Assembly: GCF_019904235.1 (NCBI RefSeq)
Contig: NZ_CP063202.1
Coordinates: 1,488,001-1,552,000, forward strand
Length of the DNA stretch: 64,000 nt
Source of the DNA: Erythrobacter sp. SCSIO 43205
GTDB lineage: Bacteria; Pseudomonadota; Alphaproteobacteria; Sphingomonadales; Sphingomonadaceae
Direction of reading: 5' to 3'
Positions 41,734 through 47,681 of this stretch are shown here, one piece after another. The notes below the pieces were generated by a model. It saw only the letters and a program-made list of their open reading frames with translations. It was not told the origin of the DNA and searched no databases. Every line of letters begins with the position of its first letter. The stretch's first letter is position 1. A program made the translations under genes and the position numbers.

Positions 41734-42069
41734 ATGACGATCACAGTGAATTTCATCGACCCCAAGGGCAATCCAGTCACGGCCAAGGGTGAGGTTGGCG
41801 ACAACCTTTTGAAAGTCGGACAGGCAGCGGGGCTCCCGCTTGAGGGCACGTGCGAGGGGCAGATGGCTTGCTCAACCTGCCACGTAATCGTCGCGGGCGA
41901 ATGGTTCGAAAAACTGGATGATGCTTCCGAAGAGGAAGAAGATATGCTCGATTTCGCCGCAGGAGTGCGCCGCACCTCGCGATTGTCTTGTCAGATCGAT
42001 CTGACCGAAGAACTGGATGGTCTTACCGTCACCGTTCCGGGCGAAAGCCACGACGCGCGCGGACTTTAG
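41734..42069 (+). CDS. [2Fe-2S] ferredoxin (adrenodoxin/Isc type)
   Basis: 111 residues. The four cluster ligands are Cys40, Cys46, Cys49 and Cys86 in GTCEGQMACSTCH and RLSCQI, the spacing of vertebrate-type/Isc ferredoxins. An acidic patch follows the cluster (DDASEEEEDML), as in adrenodoxin, for contact with redox partners. It probably supplies electrons for cluster assembly along with the desulfurases upstream. A strong terminator follows. Confidence 0.95.
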   Translation: MTITVNFIDPKGNPVTAKGEVGDNLLKVGQAAGLPLEGTCEGQMACSTCHVIVAGEWFEKLDDASEEEEDMLDFAAGVRRTSRLSCQIDLTEELDGLTVTVPGESHDARGL

Positions 42070-42131: not shown

Positions 42132-42680
42132 TTAGATGTGTTCAACGACATTTTCGGCGGGAATTTTCACCGCGTCGATCAGCGCCTCTGTAAAGGCTGG
42201 AATGTCGTCCGGGTTGCGGCTGGTGATGAGATTTCCATCGACCGCGACCTTGCGATCAATCACATCGCCGCCTGCGTTCTTGAGGTCGGTGCGCACTGAT
42301 GGCCATGCGGTGACGACTTTACCATCGACGAGGCCCGCTTCGATCAGCAGCCAAGGTGCGTGACAGATCGCCGCGATCGGCTTGTCCTGTTTGTCGAACG
42401 ATTTGATCAGGTCGATGACTGTATCGTTCAGGCGCAGAACGTCGGGGTTGATTTGACCACCGGGCAGCAGCAGGCCGTCAAAATCATCGGCGCTCACTTT
42501 GTCTACGGTCGTTTCGACCTGGACATCGCTGCCCCAGTCGCCGTCTTCCCAGCCTTTGATCGTGCCGGTTTCAAGGCTTGCCACGACCGTCTCGGCTCCG
42601 GCTTCTTCAAGCAGCTTTTTGGGTTGTTCCAGCTCTGATTGTTCAAAGCCGTCGGTTGCGATGATGAGAATGCGTTTCAT
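42132..42680 (-). CDS. DJ-1/PfpI family protein (YhbO/protease I type)
   Basis: 182 residues. The conserved Cys lies in the nucleophile elbow AAICHAPWLL (Cys about 105), with acidic Glu near residue 14 (DGFEQSELEQP) and LLLPGGQINPD. Family members are deglycases/holdases or stress proteins. The ATG at 42680 has AAGGAG upstream; the longer ORF to 42713 is unlikely. It is divergent from the micro-ORF unit with about 280 nt between. Confidence 0.92.
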   Translation of the reverse strand: MKRILIIATDGFEQSELEQPKKLLEEAGAETVVASLETGTIKGWEDGDWGSDVQVETTVDKVSADDFDGLLLPGGQINPDVLRLNDTVIDLIKSFDKQDKPIAAICHAPWLLIEAGLVDGKVVTAWPSVRTDLKNAGGDVIDRKVAVDGNLITSRNPDDIPAFTEALIDAVKIPAENVVEHI

Positions 42681-42876
42681 GTCTCGTGTGCTCCTTTTCA
42701 TTCGTGTCTTCATCCCTGCTTAGGGATGAGCTGCCGGTTCGTTCCAAATTGCGCAAAAGGACGCCCCAAACCGCTTTCCCAACAATTGGGAATATGAACC
42801 AATGTTCAGGATTGTCACGAATTGAAAACGGGCGGGAGCTGCAGAAAAATCGCGGATTTCTGCGGTTTTTCGAGTT

Positions 42877-42892
42877 TGGCACGGCCCCTGCA
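42877..42892 (+). promoter_or_regulatory. Sigma-54-type promoter ahead of the micro-ORFs
   Basis: TGGCACG-GCCC-CTGCA matches the consensus TGGCACG-N4-TTGCA at all positions but one, with the essential GG and GC at the proper spacing. Transcription would start near 42903, about 60 nt before the first micro-ORF. A 7-bp inverted repeat GCAGAAA/TTTCTGC (42841-42863) lies just upstream. A sigma-54 promoter needs an activator ATPase, suggesting stress or developmental control. Confidence 0.75.
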
Positions 42893-42962
42893 AAGTAGTT
42901 GGCATACAGCGGAAACAACCCGCAAACAGCTTAAGTAACCTTTTCAAACGGAGACACGAACC

Positions 42963-43070
42963 ATGACTACAATCGCCAACAACTTCGCAGCAGCCGCTTT
43001 CTCGGTTCTGATTTCGGCAAGCCTCTTCGCTTACGCAATCGTGCCAGCAAGCCCGCTCGCATTCGCATAA
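42963..43070 (+). CDS. Tandem micro-ORF 1: 35-residue membrane peptide
   Basis: ATG with GGAG 9 nt upstream. The peptide has a short polar start (MTTIANN), one hydrophobic helix and the C-terminal core LFAYAIVPASP. It is clearly paralogous to the next two ORFs: NN, F, A, S, LF(A/S)YAI and PASP are at matching positions. There is no cleavable signal or lipobox. I do not recognise the family. Its presence in three tandem copies, each with its own ribosome-binding site, makes real translation likely. Possible roles are a small regulatory membrane peptide, toxin-like or envelope-stress peptide, all inference. Confidence 0.75.
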   Translation: MTTIANNFAAAAFSVLISASLFAYAIVPASPLAFA

Positions 43071-43111
43071 ATCCAACCCGACACACCGAACTCATTCAAA
43101 GGAATTTCAAC

Positions 43112-43219
43112 ATGACCATCGCCGCCAATAACTTCGTTGCCGCAGCTTTCAGCCTCGTCGTTTCAGCTGCTCTTTTCTCTTACGCGATCCTCCCTGCCAG
43201 CCCACAGCTTCTCGCCTAA
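43112..43219 (+). CDS. Tandem micro-ORF 2: 35-residue membrane peptide
   Basis: ATG with AAAGGA 8-9 nt upstream, 41 nt after micro-ORF 1. Shares with copy 1 ANNF.AAAFS, S...LF(S)YAI, and PASP near the C-terminus. The middle (LVVSAALFSYAILP) forms one membrane segment. Changes relative to copy 1 are mostly conservative hydrophobic swaps, which suggests selection on the protein rather than drift of non-coding repeats. Confidence 0.75.
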   Translation: MTIAANNFVAAAFSLVVSAALFSYAILPASPQLLA

Positions 43220-43267
43220 GCTGGCCGGTCCGGAGGCAGACGCGACCACCCTCAAAGGACCCATATC

Positions 43268-43372
43268 ATGACCCGCACGAACAACCTTTTTGCATTCGCC
43301 CTTTCGATTATCACCAGCACCACGCTTTTCGCCTACGCTATTCTCCCCGCAAGCCCCGGCATAATTGCGTGA
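43268..43372 (+). CDS. Tandem micro-ORF 3: 34-residue membrane peptide
   Basis: ATG with AAAGGA upstream, 48 nt after micro-ORF 2. The most divergent copy (MTRTNNLFAFALSIITS...) but with the same LFAYAILPASP core at the same distance from the C-terminus. The extra Arg at position 3 gives a stronger positive N-terminus. It is the last gene before the terminator at 43418. Confidence 0.72.
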   Translation: MTRTNNLFAFALSIITSTTLFAYAILPASPGIIA

Positions 43373-43417
43373 CACCCCGCTAGCCACCGTCCCCTTTTCC
43401 AAGGCTAGCACCCGCCC

Positions 43418-43463
43418 AAGGGCGCATCGGCTCCTTCCCCTAACGGTCCGATGCGCCCTTTTT
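43418..43463 (+). terminator. Intrinsic terminator closing the micro-ORF unit
   Basis: AAGGGCGCATCGG pairs perfectly with CCGATGCGCCCTT (13 bp), followed by TTT of a five-T run. It separates the micro-ORF transcript from the caspase-like gene, so the two are probably independent. Confidence 0.92.
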
Positions 43464-43527: not shown

Positions 43528-45306
43528 ATGTTTACACAGATCAAGAAATGGGCGCTTTGTGCAGCGCTCGCTGTTTTCGCCCTCTTCCCCGCAGCAGCCA
43601 ATGCGGGAGGCAAATACGCGCTTCTCATCGGCAATTCCGATTATGAGCAGCAAGGCGAAGGCAAATCCTGGACCAAGCTTCCCAACCCTGCGAATGATAT
43701 TGCCCTGGTCGGCAGATCGCTGAACGCTATCGGTTTCGAGGTCACCAGCCTTACCAATGGCGATTGGCGCGAAATGCGCGATACCATCCGCGATTTCAGC
43801 AACTCCATCGGTGATGCAGATATTGTGGTGTTCTATTTCGCCGGGCACGGCTTTGAATATGGACGGCGCAATTACCTTGTCCCGGTTGATGCCAGCCTTG
43901 AGGCGAGCGCTGATGACATCGACAAAACCTTTATCGAATTCGAGGATTTGGCAGAGCGCCTTTATAACGAAGGCACGACCATCTTTATGCTCGATGCCTG
44001 CCGCACGGGCGGTGAGATCACGCAAACGGGCGAGAATGGCGGCGCTGTCACGAGAAGTGCGCCTGCGCCTGTCATCATAGAACCGGCCACCCGTCAGGCC
44101 GCGTCCGGCGGGATGCGCGAATTTGATTTTGAGCCCGGAGCGCGCGTTGGGGTTCTCTATTCCACCGGACGGGGCGTGCCCGCTTATGATTCTGCACCGC
44201 CGCCCGAAAATGTGAGCCCGTTTGCCGTTGAGGTCGCCGAAAAAGTCACCGTCCCGCGCATGGATGTGAGCATTGTTTTCAACGCCATTCGCGACGGCGT
44301 TTTGCAGCGCACCGAGGGGTTTTGGCCTGTGCAAGTGCCGTTCACTTATAACTCTTTGTCGCCAAACACGTTCTTCACGATGGAACCTGCGGTTTTCAAT
44401 GACGATCCAACGCTTGGCTTTAAATCGGTGAAGCCTCCGAAAAGGCTTCGACCGATCAACCTTTCGCTTGAAGAGCTTGGCCGTATAGATGAGCCGATCC
44501 TTGTCATGCGCGTGCTGTCGCAGCATAGCGTTGATGATGTGAAAACACTGGTCGCTATGGGCGATCCGCTCGCGACTTACATTCTGGGCTATATGCAGCA
44601 TTTCGGGCTCGGCGTTCCCAAAGACCTTACCGCCGCACGTGCGACACTCGAACAGGCGGCGTCTTACGGAACGCCATATGGCCAGCTTGAGCTTGCCTAT
44701 TTTCTGCGCGTGAATGCCAAGGATGAGGCTGACCGGGCGCGCTCGCTTGCACTCTACAAGGCCGCCGCGCAGCAGGATTACGCCAAGGCGCGCGGCCATT
44801 ATTCGCGCGTTCTGATCGGCGCGGCGGCGCACACCGGAACGCCCGAATATGTCGAAGGCGTGCGCCAACAACGCCTCGCAGCTGAAGCGGGCTATGCCTA
44901 TGCCTATTACGGCCTGTTCTATGCCGTGCCGGAGGAGCGCGACGAGCTTATCGCTGCGCTCGAAGCGATGGCGGAAAAAGGGCGCAGCGATGCCGATCAG
45001 CAATTGTGCAATATCTTTATGCGCGAAAAGCAGTACGCCGATGCGATGCCCCATTGCGAAGTTGCAGCGAGGGCGGGTTATCCCGATGCCTTTGCTCATC
45101 TCGCTCTGGCAGCGGAGCGGGGGTGGACGGCCCCGCGATCGATCGAGGATGCGCGGTTCTGGATGCGACAAGCCTTGTCGCGCGGCGATCTGGAGGCGGG
45201 GCTGTGCGGACAGATGATGTCGATGCAGATTGCGCTGGAAAATGAGACGGGGACTAAGGGTGTAGCCCGTATAGAGAACTGCAACCGCTCCGCATCCGCT
45301 CTTTAA
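43528..45306 (+). CDS. Secreted caspase-like (C14) protease with Sel1 repeats
   Basis: 592 residues: signal peptide (cleavage about ANA-GG, residue 26-27), a caspase/metacaspase-type domain (about 28-250) with catalytic His107 in FYFAGHGFEYG and Cys158 in MLDACRTGG, then a Sel1/TPR-like helical region (about 345-580; repeats such as ATYILGYMQHFGLGVPKD and DAFAHLALAAERG). The fusion suggests a protease whose target binding is by the Sel1 part, in the periplasm. Similar proteins are widespread in alphaproteobacteria with no defined role. A programmed-death or signalling role is inference. It starts 65 nt after the micro-ORF terminator. Confidence 0.85.
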   Translation: MFTQIKKWALCAALAVFALFPAAANAGGKYALLIGNSDYEQQGEGKSWTKLPNPANDIALVGRSLNAIGFEVTSLTNGDWREMRDTIRDFSNSIGDADIVVFYFAGHGFEYGRRNYLVPVDASLEASADDIDKTFIEFEDLAERLYNEGTTIFMLDACRTGGEITQTGENGGAVTRSAPAPVIIEPATRQAASGGMREFDFEPGARVGVLYSTGRGVPAYDSAPPPENVSPFAVEVAEKVTVPRMDVSIVFNAIRDGVLQRTEGFWPVQVPFTYNSLSPNTFFTMEPAVFNDDPTLGFKSVKPPKRLRPINLSLEELGRIDEPILVMRVLSQHSVDDVKTLVAMGDPLATYILGYMQHFGLGVPKDLTAARATLEQAASYGTPYGQLELAYFLRVNAKDEADRARSLALYKAAAQQDYAKARGHYSRVLIGAAAHTGTPEYVEGVRQQRLAAEAGYAYAYYGLFYAVPEERDELIAALEAMAEKGRSDADQQLCNIFMREKQYADAMPHCEVAARAGYPDAFAHLALAAERGWTAPRSIEDARFWMRQALSRGDLEAGLCGQMMSMQIALENETGTKGVARIENCNRSASAL

Positions 45307-45377: not shown

Positions 45378-47681
45378 ATGGCAGACCCCACGACCCCAAT
45401 AGCTTCTGGTGACGACACCGACCCGTTCGACGCGATTGTCGATGCACCTTTTGATGCCGCTCTGTCCGAGCGCTATCTCGTCTATGCGCTTTCAACGATC
45501 ACCGCGCGCTCGCTTCCTGATCTACGCGATGGGTTGAAGCCCGTGCACCGACGCCTTTTATGGACGATGCGCCAGCTCAAATTGTCGCCCGACAGCACGT
45601 ACAAGAAAAGCGCCCGCGTCGTGGGTGAGGTGATCGGTAAATACCACCCCCATGGCGACACGGCTGCGTATGATGCGATGGTGCGCTTGGCGCAGGACTT
45701 TTCGCTGCGCTATCCGCTGGTTGAGGGGCAGGGCAACTTCGGCAATATCGACGGCGATAATGCCGCTGCCTATCGCTACACCGAAGCGCGCCTGACCAAG
45801 ACCGCTATGCAGCTAATGGAAGGGCTGGATGCAGGGACAGTCGACTTCATCCCGACCTATAACGGCGAGGAGGAAGAACCGGAGCTTATGCCGGGTCTGT
45901 TTCCCAATCTGCTGGCCAACGGGGCAAGCGGGATTGCGGTGGGCATGGCGACCAACATCCCTTCGCACAATGTTGCTGAGGTGATCGATGCGACGCTTGA
46001 GCTGATCGACAATCCTCATGTTGAGCACGAGCGCTTGATGGAGCTGATGCAGGGGCCGGATTTTGCGACCGGTGGGCAGTTGGTGGACAGCGCCAGCGTG
46101 ATTTCCGAGGCCTATCGCACCGGGCGCGGTTCCTTCCGTTTGCGGGGTGTGTTCCATGCGCCCGAAGCGGAGAATGCAGACGACCAGTCCGCCGGGATCG
46201 AGCGACTTGGCGGGGGGCAATGGCAACTCGTCATTACCGAAATCCCCTATCAGGTGCAAAAGGGCAAGCTGATCGAACAGATCGCGCAGGCGATTGCCGA
46301 TAAAAAGCTGCCGATTTTGGATGATGTGCGCGACGAAAGTGACGAGAGCATTCGCATCGTCCTCGTACCACGCACGCGCAACGTCGATCCTGAACTGCTG
46401 AAAGAAAGCATATTCAAGCTGACGGATATGGAAACGCGTTTCGGGCTCAATATGAACGTGCTCGATGCGACACGCACGCCGATGGTGATGGGGCTGAAAG
46501 AGCTCCTGCAAAATTGGACCGCATCGCAGATTGAGATTCTGCAACGCCGGACCCAGCACCGGCTGGATCAAATCGCCCGGCGCCTGGAACTGGTGGAAGG
46601 TTACATCACCGCCTTCCTCAATCTTGATCGCGTGATCGAGATTATCCGATATGAGGATGAGCCCAAGCAAGTGATGATGGCTGAGTTCAACCTCACCGAC
46701 CGTCAGGCAGAGGCGATCCTCAATATGCGGCTTCGCTCCTTGCGCAAGCTTGAGGAGATGGAGCTGCGCACCGAGAAGGATAACCTTCTTAAAGAGCAGG
46801 ACGAGCTTACCAAGCTTCTTGAAAGCCCCGCGCGCCAGCGTACGCGTTTGAAGAAAGATCTGCGCACACTGCGCAAGGATTATGCCGAAGACACCGCTCT
46901 TGGCGCTCGCCGGACGCGTATCGAAGAGGCTGCTCCTGCGGTTGAATTCTCGATGGATGCAATGATCGAGAAAGAGCCGGTAACGGTGATCTTATCGCAA
47001 AAAGGGTGGATCCGCGCGGCCAAAGGCCACGTCGATCTGGACCAGGAATTCAAATATAAAGAAGGCGATGCGCTTGCCTTCATCCTCCATGCGCAGACGA
47101 CCGACAAACTACTGATCGCGGGCTCAGATGGGCGGTTTTATACTCTTGGTTGCGATAAGCTCCCCGGCGCACGCGGTTTTGGTGAGCCGGTGCGCACCAT
47201 GATCGACCTGCCGGCGGAAACCAACGTTGCTGCCATGCTGGTTCATAAACCCGGTGGTCGCCTGCTGCTCGCGTCAAGCAACGGCAAAGGCTTCATCGCC
47301 GAAACAAAAGAGCTGATAGCAGAGACGAAGAAGGGCAAGCAGGTGGTGAACCTTAAGGGTTCTTCCAAGCTTCAGGTAATCCGCGAAATTCCAGAGGGCC
47401 ACGATCATGTCGCGGCGGTGGGGGACAACCGCAAGCTTATCGTCTTCAACATGGAAGAGATGCCGGTGATGGCGCGTGGGCAGGGCGTGATGCTGCAACG
47501 CTACCGCGACGGCGGGCTTAGCGATGCGACGACCTTCAAGCTGGAAGACGGCCTTAGCTGGCAAATGGGCGGATCGGGTGAACGCACGCGGACCGAGAAC
47601 GAAATCTGGCAATGGAAAGTCGCACGCGGCGCAGCCGGACGTTTGCCGCCGCAGGGTTTTCCGAAGGATAATCGGTTTTGA
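45378..47681 (+). CDS. parC: DNA topoisomerase IV subunit A
   Basis: 767 residues. Cuts and rejoins DNA for decatenation. The active tyrosine is Tyr134 in [10 protein letters not shown]; the quinolone-determining region is [17 protein letters not shown]. The C-terminal beta-pinwheel contains degenerate blades ([29 protein letters not shown]) and lacks the GyrA box QRRGGKG, which separates it from GyrA. The partner parE is not in the window. Confidence 0.96.

Follow-up and report, generated by a model that had tools for sequence, protein, structure and literature searches.

A Candidate PspF/Sigma54-Controlled Array of Membrane Micropeptides in Erythrobacter sp. SCSIO 43205 and Its Relatives

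Structure of the Array Locus

The stretch of DNA analysed here (hereafter the window) comprises 64,000 nucleotides of the genome of Erythrobacter sp. SCSIO 43205 and lies on a single 3.38-Mb contig. It contains a tandem array of three small open reading frames (ORFs) between a sigma54-type promoter and an intrinsic terminator (Table 1). The three ORFs share the core LF(A/S)YAI(V/L)PASP, and their purine-rich ribosome sites are GGAGA, AAGGAA, and AAGGAC. The promoter, the three ORFs with their own ribosome sites, the common core, and the 13-bp terminator with its T-run had all been described in the original prediction, and all are confirmed at the coordinates in Table 1.

Table 1. Features of the array locus and of related loci in the same genome. 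Positions are those of the window unless the genome or another locus is named.
Feature	Position	Strand	Remarks
[2Fe-2S] ferredoxin gene	end at 42069		upstream neighbour
PfpI/DJ-1 gene	42132-42713	-	flanks the array upstream
Upstream activating element CCAACAATTGGGAATATGAACCAATGTTCAGGATTG	42779-42814	+	candidate PspF site; resembles the pspA-promoter element
Sigma54 -24/-12 promoter TGGCACGGCCCCTGCA	42877-42892	+	TGGCACG-GCCC-CTGCA; first ATG 86 bp downstream
Micropeptide 1 MTTIANNFAAAAFSVLISASLFAYAIVPASPLAFA	42963-43070	+	35 aa; purine-rich ribosome site
Micropeptide 2 MTIAANNFVAAAFSLVVSAALFSYAILPASPQLLA	43112-43219	+	35 aa; purine-rich ribosome site; modelled main helix, residues 2-26
Micropeptide 3 MTRTNNLFAFALSIITSTTLFAYAILPASPGIIA	43268-43372	+	34 aa; purine-rich ribosome site
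Intrinsic terminator	43418-43463	+	closes the unit ahead of the caspase-like gene
Caspase-like gene	43528-45306	+	PF00656, E = 2.2e-24; weak Sel1 repeat match
parC	at 45378		downstream of the caspase-like gene
Further peptide copy, recF-type array	genome, 2605148-2605255	-	
Further peptide copy, recF-type array	genome, 2605011-2605118	-	
psp leader ORF	L057:3124-3288	+	small, hydrophobic; between sigma54 promoter and pspA

In the terminator, 43418-43430 pairs perfectly with 43448-43460 to form a 13-bp stem around a 17-nt loop, and T5 lies at 43459-43463. The folding energy of this stretch is -32.8 kcal/mol (z = -5.15 relative to shuffled sequences). A terminator scan listed none at the window array, presumably because it admits loops of 3-8 only. 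Long perfect stems with a T-rich tail were also searched for after the 17 arrays without PspC; as a control, stems of 8 bp or more were seen in 11 of 400 random segments. Stems of at least 10 bp follow four of these arrays (the window, L118, L172, and L173), and a terminator is therefore established for the window array but not for the family as a whole. The only family detected by Rfam in the window at gathering thresholds is tRNA.

The caspase-like neighbour was considered as a partner of the array and dropped, because among five syntenic relatives only L117 and L121, the latter from Erythrobacter longus DSM 6997, have the gene between the array and parC; it was not found in L118, L120, and L122. 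The window locus itself contains no PspC gene.

Distribution and Genomic Settings

With a single peptide as the query, 52 of the 61 genomes in a genus sample gave matches at E ≤ 0.01. A 23-row profile gave matches in 63 genomes (14 genera) out of 296 sampled from Sphingomonadales (79 genera); 62 of the 63 belong to the same family as the window. One marginal match in the same order (G165, E = 0.0068) was set aside as chance. In a class-wide sample of 385 genomes, strong matches were found in only two genomes, both of the window's genus. Eight distant-class matches (E = 0.0019-0.008, two with in-frame stops) were also regarded as chance; about 3.9 are expected over 385 genomes. As far as sampled, the peptide family appears to be confined to one family of Sphingomonadales, including Erythrobacter, Porphyrobacter, Qipengyuania, and relatives.

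Named genomes were scanned with the exact seed AYAI(V/I/L)PASP, which biases the collection to near relatives. The scan gave 70 loci from Erythrobacter, Porphyrobacter, Qipengyuania, and unclassified Erythrobacteraceae, Sphingomonadales, and Alphaproteobacteria records. By the pattern, 47 loci have two copies, 14 have three, 8 have one, and L167, at a contig end, has none. Relatives do keep the peptides as tandem copies, with at least two in 61 of the 70 loci.

The commonest arrangement is the promoter, the peptides, and a small PspC-domain gene. By tblastn with neighbours, 52 of the 70 loci have a PspC-like gene behind the peptides, and recF is divergent upstream in 51 of these; the other, L143, is truncated by its contig. 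The window-type setting, from the ferredoxin gene to parC, is seen in five loci (L117, L118, L120, L121, and L122). The remaining 13 are neither PspC-type nor window-type. Two arrays among these 13 loci, which have no recF, parC, or PspC, adjoin TonB-dependent receptor genes (L132:5262-7460 and L135:5265-7508 (-)).

The genome of the window has a second array, of the recF type, with two further peptide copies (Table 1). It sits behind the sigma54 site TGGCACGCCTCCTGCA and is followed by a 58-residue ORF and then by a 71-residue protein, which is PspC (PF04024, E = 1.2e-13). recF (TIGR00611, E = 6.6e-67) is divergent and upstream of the promoter.

In the psp operon of the same genome, pspF is divergent from a 55-residue leader ORF, pspA, pspB, and pspC, with the sigma54 site TGGCACGCCCCCTGCA. 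A leader ORF of 50-64 residues is present between the sigma54 promoter and pspA here and in the other 23 usable psp loci of the genus (see below). The leader ORF of this genome matches no Pfam family, has 26 database relatives at E ≤ 0.01, and may be a further Psp micropeptide. Downstream of its pspC, five more small ORFs are found (L057:5048-6660, +). The three of them that were scanned gave sub-threshold Pfam matches only, one of them weakly to PspB. Behind all three PspF-type promoters inspected in the genome, the first ORF is tiny and hydrophobic.

PspA was found in 283 of the 296 genomes of the order, a near-ubiquity that prevents presence patterns from proving a link between the arrays and Psp. 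G002 has PspA and PspF and no peptide match, indicating that the arrays are dispensable for having a Psp response. Two genomes of the genus sample, G008 and G054, gave neither a PspA match nor a peptide match; G008 has a piece of PspF, and G054 is incomplete.

Coding Status and Selection

Between the window and L117 (Qipengyuania sp. S6317L1), the three peptides taken together show 0.33 synonymous and 0.05 nonsynonymous differences per site, corresponding to dN/dS of 0.12. Among close pairs of recF-type arrays, dN/dS averages 0.32 and reaches at most 1.2 for copy A (555 pairs of 41 sequences); for copy B it averages 0.24, with a highest value of 0.71 (334 pairs of 38 sequences). Single-pair values are noisy because there are only 37 codons. 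Third codon positions are the most variable in the peptide genes. Between the window's own copies, pS is 0.70-0.82 and pN is 0.23-0.36, giving only a rough ratio because synonymous sites are near saturation. Judged from these substitutions, the selection on the peptides is purifying, and it is the protein sequence, not DNA alone, that appears to be selected. The original prediction had proposed tandem paralogues selected as proteins and had named dN/dS near 1 as contrary evidence; the ratio of about 0.12 against the nearest relative is well below that value.

In relative loci, 139 of 144 ORFs have a ribosome site, a count that is not independent evidence because the start codon was picked partly by its ribosome site. 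The three ORFs of the window are almost certainly translated genes.

Features of the Peptides

Features were counted in 161 distinct relatives of 33-44 residues, aligned on PASP; the window copies are not among them. These peptides have a single hydrophobic run, from about -20 to -1 before PASP. AlphaFold, given peptide 2 with 29 other sequences, modelled the main helix listed in Table 1 and a short low-confidence helix at residues 31-34, with a mean pLDDT of 85 and pTM of 0.46. Both the sequences and the model contain one hydrophobic helix of membrane-spanning length, so the single hydrophobic segment per peptide noticed earlier is borne out.

Only small residues occupy -18, -14, and -10 before PASP in the 161 relatives, and 160 of them have A at -17. 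Together these positions make up what is, on the aligned sequences, a zipper-like small-xxx-small-xxx-small face. The window peptides are also small at -18, -14, and -10, and peptide 3 has F at -17. The net side-chain charge is 0 in 145 of 161 relatives, usually because an acidic residue at -25 offsets a basic one at -21. With related peptides treated as independent, 117 have both of these residues, 23 neither, 20 the base only, and 1 the acid only. Peptides 1 and 2 of the window have no charged residue, while peptide 3 has one arginine.

Family Status and Annotation

None of the three window peptides matches a family of Pfam or NCBIfam at E ≤ 1, including PspG, the named Psp families, and toxin families. 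This upholds the earlier statement that the motif belongs to no named family. That the family is unannotated altogether, as a single 41-aa query with two predicted proteins found had implied, was rejected, since a profile search showed the limit of that query. The profile search of predicted proteins gave 6622 candidates, 1364 of them at E ≤ 0.1. The expectation that such small ORFs escape gene calling is thus corrected: they are not hidden everywhere.

Among the best 120 of the 1364 relatives, a number are named "recombination protein F" or "enoyl-CoA hydratase" by NCBI. Examples are P0009, P0012, P0034, P0060, P0013, P0020, P0048, and P0109, which have 36-47 residues. These wrong names are perhaps borrowed from neighbouring genes; at L173, a real enoyl-CoA hydratase gene adjoins the array. 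Twelve database sequences were inspected, of which 11 are family members of 36-51 residues and one is a 71-residue protein (P0003) that looks like an in-frame fusion of two array copies. No description of the peptide family was found in the open-licence literature, a body outside which most subscription papers lie. The Qipengyuania strains of PMC9241875 are stated there to have Psp genes.

The Sigma54 Promoter

Sigma54 promoters have a TGGCAC-type -24 box and a TGC -12 box at the fixed spacing GG-N10-GC. Sixty-eight of the 70 relative loci have a -24/-12 site no more than 130 bp from the first ATG, 55 of them at 77-81 bp, against a chance expectation of 0.004 per 130 bp from the density of the motif in the window. 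The two exceptions are L150, in which one base of the site is altered, and L167, whose stretch contains no array. In the genome of the window, the strict motif occurs 20 times and a reversed-pattern control twice, and RpoN was found once. The sigma54 promoter proposed earlier is upheld by the sites of the same kind in relatives and by the presence of RpoN, and the -24/-12 site can be taken with very little doubt as the predicted promoter of the array.

The Upstream Element Common to Peptide and psp Promoters

In the genus, 30 psp loci were examined for their pspA promoters, and 24 have a usable sigma54 site. Six were left out: L187, L192, and L206, in which the pattern gave no pspA start, and L189, L199, and L213, in which no site was found. 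L189 is near a contig end; in L199 and L213 the pspA start is readable, yet there is no sigma54 site by the pattern used. All 24 usable promoters contain an element like CCAAACTATAGTGAAAATTCCCAATGCTTGGCAATA at one position within one base.

A matrix of this element was made from 22 psp promoters, leaving out that of the same genome and that of its nearest relative. It was scored on 56 peptide promoters. Two are those of the window and of the recF-type array in the same genome; the other 54 were entered by hand from the 70 named loci, leaving out 16. By type, the 56 are 39 recF-type, 6 window-type, and 11 other promoters. The best match is 74 bp before the -24 box in 54 of 56 and 73 bp in the other two. 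In the psp promoters the same matrix matches best at 74 bp in 22 of 24 and at 75 bp in two. The 56 peptide promoters have a mean best score of 4.3. With 200 column-shuffled matrices, the mean is -33.2 (sd 3.0) and the highest value -19.5. Such matrices place a mean of 12.9, and a maximum of 42, of the 56 best matches at one shared position; since the promoters are related sequences, the score counts for more than the fixed position taken by itself. Fifty-two of the 56 are above the 99.9th percentile of random window segments, and four are below.

Among the 20 strict sigma54 sites of the genome, the element is present at 74-75 bp only at pspA and the two peptide arrays. The scores are 50.2 for pspA, 5.9 for the recF-type array, and -5.6 for the window array, the 99.9th percentile of the null being -7.8. 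The core of the window element CCAACAATTGGGAATATGAACCAATGTTCAGGATTG stops 74 bp ahead of the -24 box. Judged by eye, nine array promoters of a second genus, g6, keep the same element; g6 is probably Qipengyuania, because one of the nine has the peptides of Q. aestuarii locus L175. In the genome of the window, a looser pattern of element plus promoter matched L218, L219, and, twice in overlap, the window array, with one match in the control. It was not used because it overlooked the other two promoters, whose letters differ.

Peptide and psp promoters have both the element and its spacing in common, as members of one PspF regulon should. PspF of Escherichia coli binds elements at pspA and pspG, according to a passage of PMC3709507. 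PspF is very likely the activator of the arrays as well, to judge by these promoter sequences.

Discussion

The preferred reading, to which a probability of roughly 0.7 can be given, is that the arrays encode single-pass inner-membrane micropeptides of the phage-shock (Psp) response under the control of PspF and sigma54. The peptide family, though new, would then most probably be part of an established stress response. The Psp response protects the proton-motive force, and in E. coli envelope damage frees PspF from PspA. If the same holds here, the freed PspF would occupy the element, some 74 bp ahead of the -24 box, and activate sigma54 RNA polymerase at pspA and the arrays alike. The peptides would be translated and inserted into the membrane as near-neutral helices, in agreement with their conservation and the model. 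The small-xxx-small-xxx-small face could pack the peptides together or with a PspC-domain protein, either the small PspC encoded with them in the commonest arrangement or possibly the PspC of the psp operon. As a result, the damaged membrane might be stabilised, or the PspB/PspC sensor might be tuned. Within the Psp response, the peptides probably serve as effectors or modulators at the membrane. Their direct partnership with PspC is a tentative suggestion, somewhat less probable than its opposite.

The peptides could instead be precursors. Signal peptidase I cuts at A-x-A, and a cut here would release a neutral periplasmic peptide of about 10 residues (I-(V/I/L)-P-A-S-P-x-x-x-A), which PspC or a different sensor would perceive as a signal or bind as a ligand. 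A is found at -5 in 160 and at -3 in all 161 relatives, directly ahead of I-(V/I/L)-P-A-S-P, a conservation that is partly by construction because the collecting pattern demanded part of this stretch. The residue between the two alanines varies (Y, T, A, M, V, or F); the g6 genomes mostly swap Y for T, A, M, or V and yet keep both alanines. Peptide 2 of the window has S at -5. However, about 20 residues is a long hydrophobic stretch for a signal peptide, few of the peptides have a net positive N-terminus, and the modelled helix extends to the cut site itself. Processing is considered unlikely.

An activator other than PspF with PspF-like sites, such as an exopolysaccharide/PEP-CTERM regulator, would place the arrays outside the Psp response. 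Seven proteins of the genome, PspF included, match PspF at E ≤ 1e-20. The sigma54 site L048 (G000:C1:2327626-2327641) has an element match of 0.0, above the -5.6 of the window, but at 65 bp. L048 precedes a Thr/Ser/Gly-rich, repeat-rich exported protein, with a lipoprotein further on that we take to be PrsT-like, the locus presumably being of the PEP-CTERM type. The match at 65 bp makes another activator with similar sites conceivable, and L048 may be its target. G317 (L231, G317:C1:423800-425800) has two peptide copies and keeps the sigma54 site and the element; PspA was not found in this genome, and its best PspF match is not close (45%). This may be due to an assembly gap. Against another activator stand the matching element at the same spacing in the 56 peptide promoters scored and the 24 psp promoters, and the PspC-domain gene after the peptides in most loci. 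Its probability is as low as that of processing, and control by PspF is preferred.

Slightly less probable again is that the peptides are small membrane toxins, similar to TisB and other type I toxins, which depolarise the stressed cell. Their size, single helix, stress-type promoter, and several copies would fit, and the small E. coli membrane protein YohP lowers the membrane potential and induces PspA and PspC, as described in part of PMC12719787. On the other hand, no toxin family was matched, and the Rfam search, with its tRNA only, gave no known antisense RNA. The net charge is mostly 0, in contrast to the positive flanks which the same part of PMC12719787 describes as frequent in membrane toxins. 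The PspC-domain gene that usually comes next is not a known antidote. Among the roles guessed in the original prediction, "toxin-like" is disfavoured by the absence of toxin families and the neutral charge, and "membrane stress peptides" is now favoured because of the element common with pspA and the PspC-domain gene.

It is very improbable that the ORFs act in cis on a gene further downstream, as leader peptides or attenuators: small ORFs do precede larger genes in the psp operon and recF-type loci, but the window array closes with its own terminator, the caspase gene adjoins in only two of five syntenic relatives, and selection acts on the protein sequence.

Under control by PspF, the peptides can be speculated to form a lineage-specific branch of the Psp response based on tandem peptides of about 35 residues. 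They might be interchangeable transmembrane subunits docking to PspC, or A-x-A-processed decapeptides reporting damage outside the inner membrane. Such a branch is unlikely, albeit less so than the alternatives above. If the preferred reading is true, a previously unnamed set of players is added to the Psp response. Apparently co-regulated one-helix proteins, present in several copies and frequently accompanied by a stripped-down PspC, would allow a direct test of the contribution that a bare transmembrane helix makes to repairing or sensing the membrane. The family also flags the database names "recombination protein F" and "enoyl-CoA hydratase" as wrong on such peptides. Even for the known components, the roles of PspD and PspE are described as unclear and PspG as not fully understood in a passage of PMC9239133.

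Four known systems can be compared with the arrays. LiaI, as described in part of PMC11237479, is likewise a small membrane protein tied to a PspA-type response. It belongs to another phylum and has another regulator, and the resemblance is conceptual only, by description rather than sequence. YohP is also short, with a single helix and a stress context (part of PMC12719787). It is likened by description as well, and whereas the Psp alarm is downstream of YohP, it is proposed to be upstream of the peptides here.

PspB and PspC are linked to the arrays by the PspC-domain protein encoded after the peptides (PF04024 in the copy of this genome). The peptides themselves match neither PspB nor PspC in Pfam, and the array-linked PspC has 71 residues, lies outside the psp operon, and adjoins recF.

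E. coli expresses PspG, a small integral effector of the inner membrane, from a second PspF/sigma54 promoter that lies apart from pspABCDE, as stated in passages of PMC2763126 and PMC3709507. PspG has two predicted transmembrane helices (passage of PMC2763126), while the peptides here have one main helix, are often in tandem, and match no Pfam family at the threshold given above. Although unrelated to PspG by any family model tried, the peptides are, as their promoters are read here, placed like PspG.
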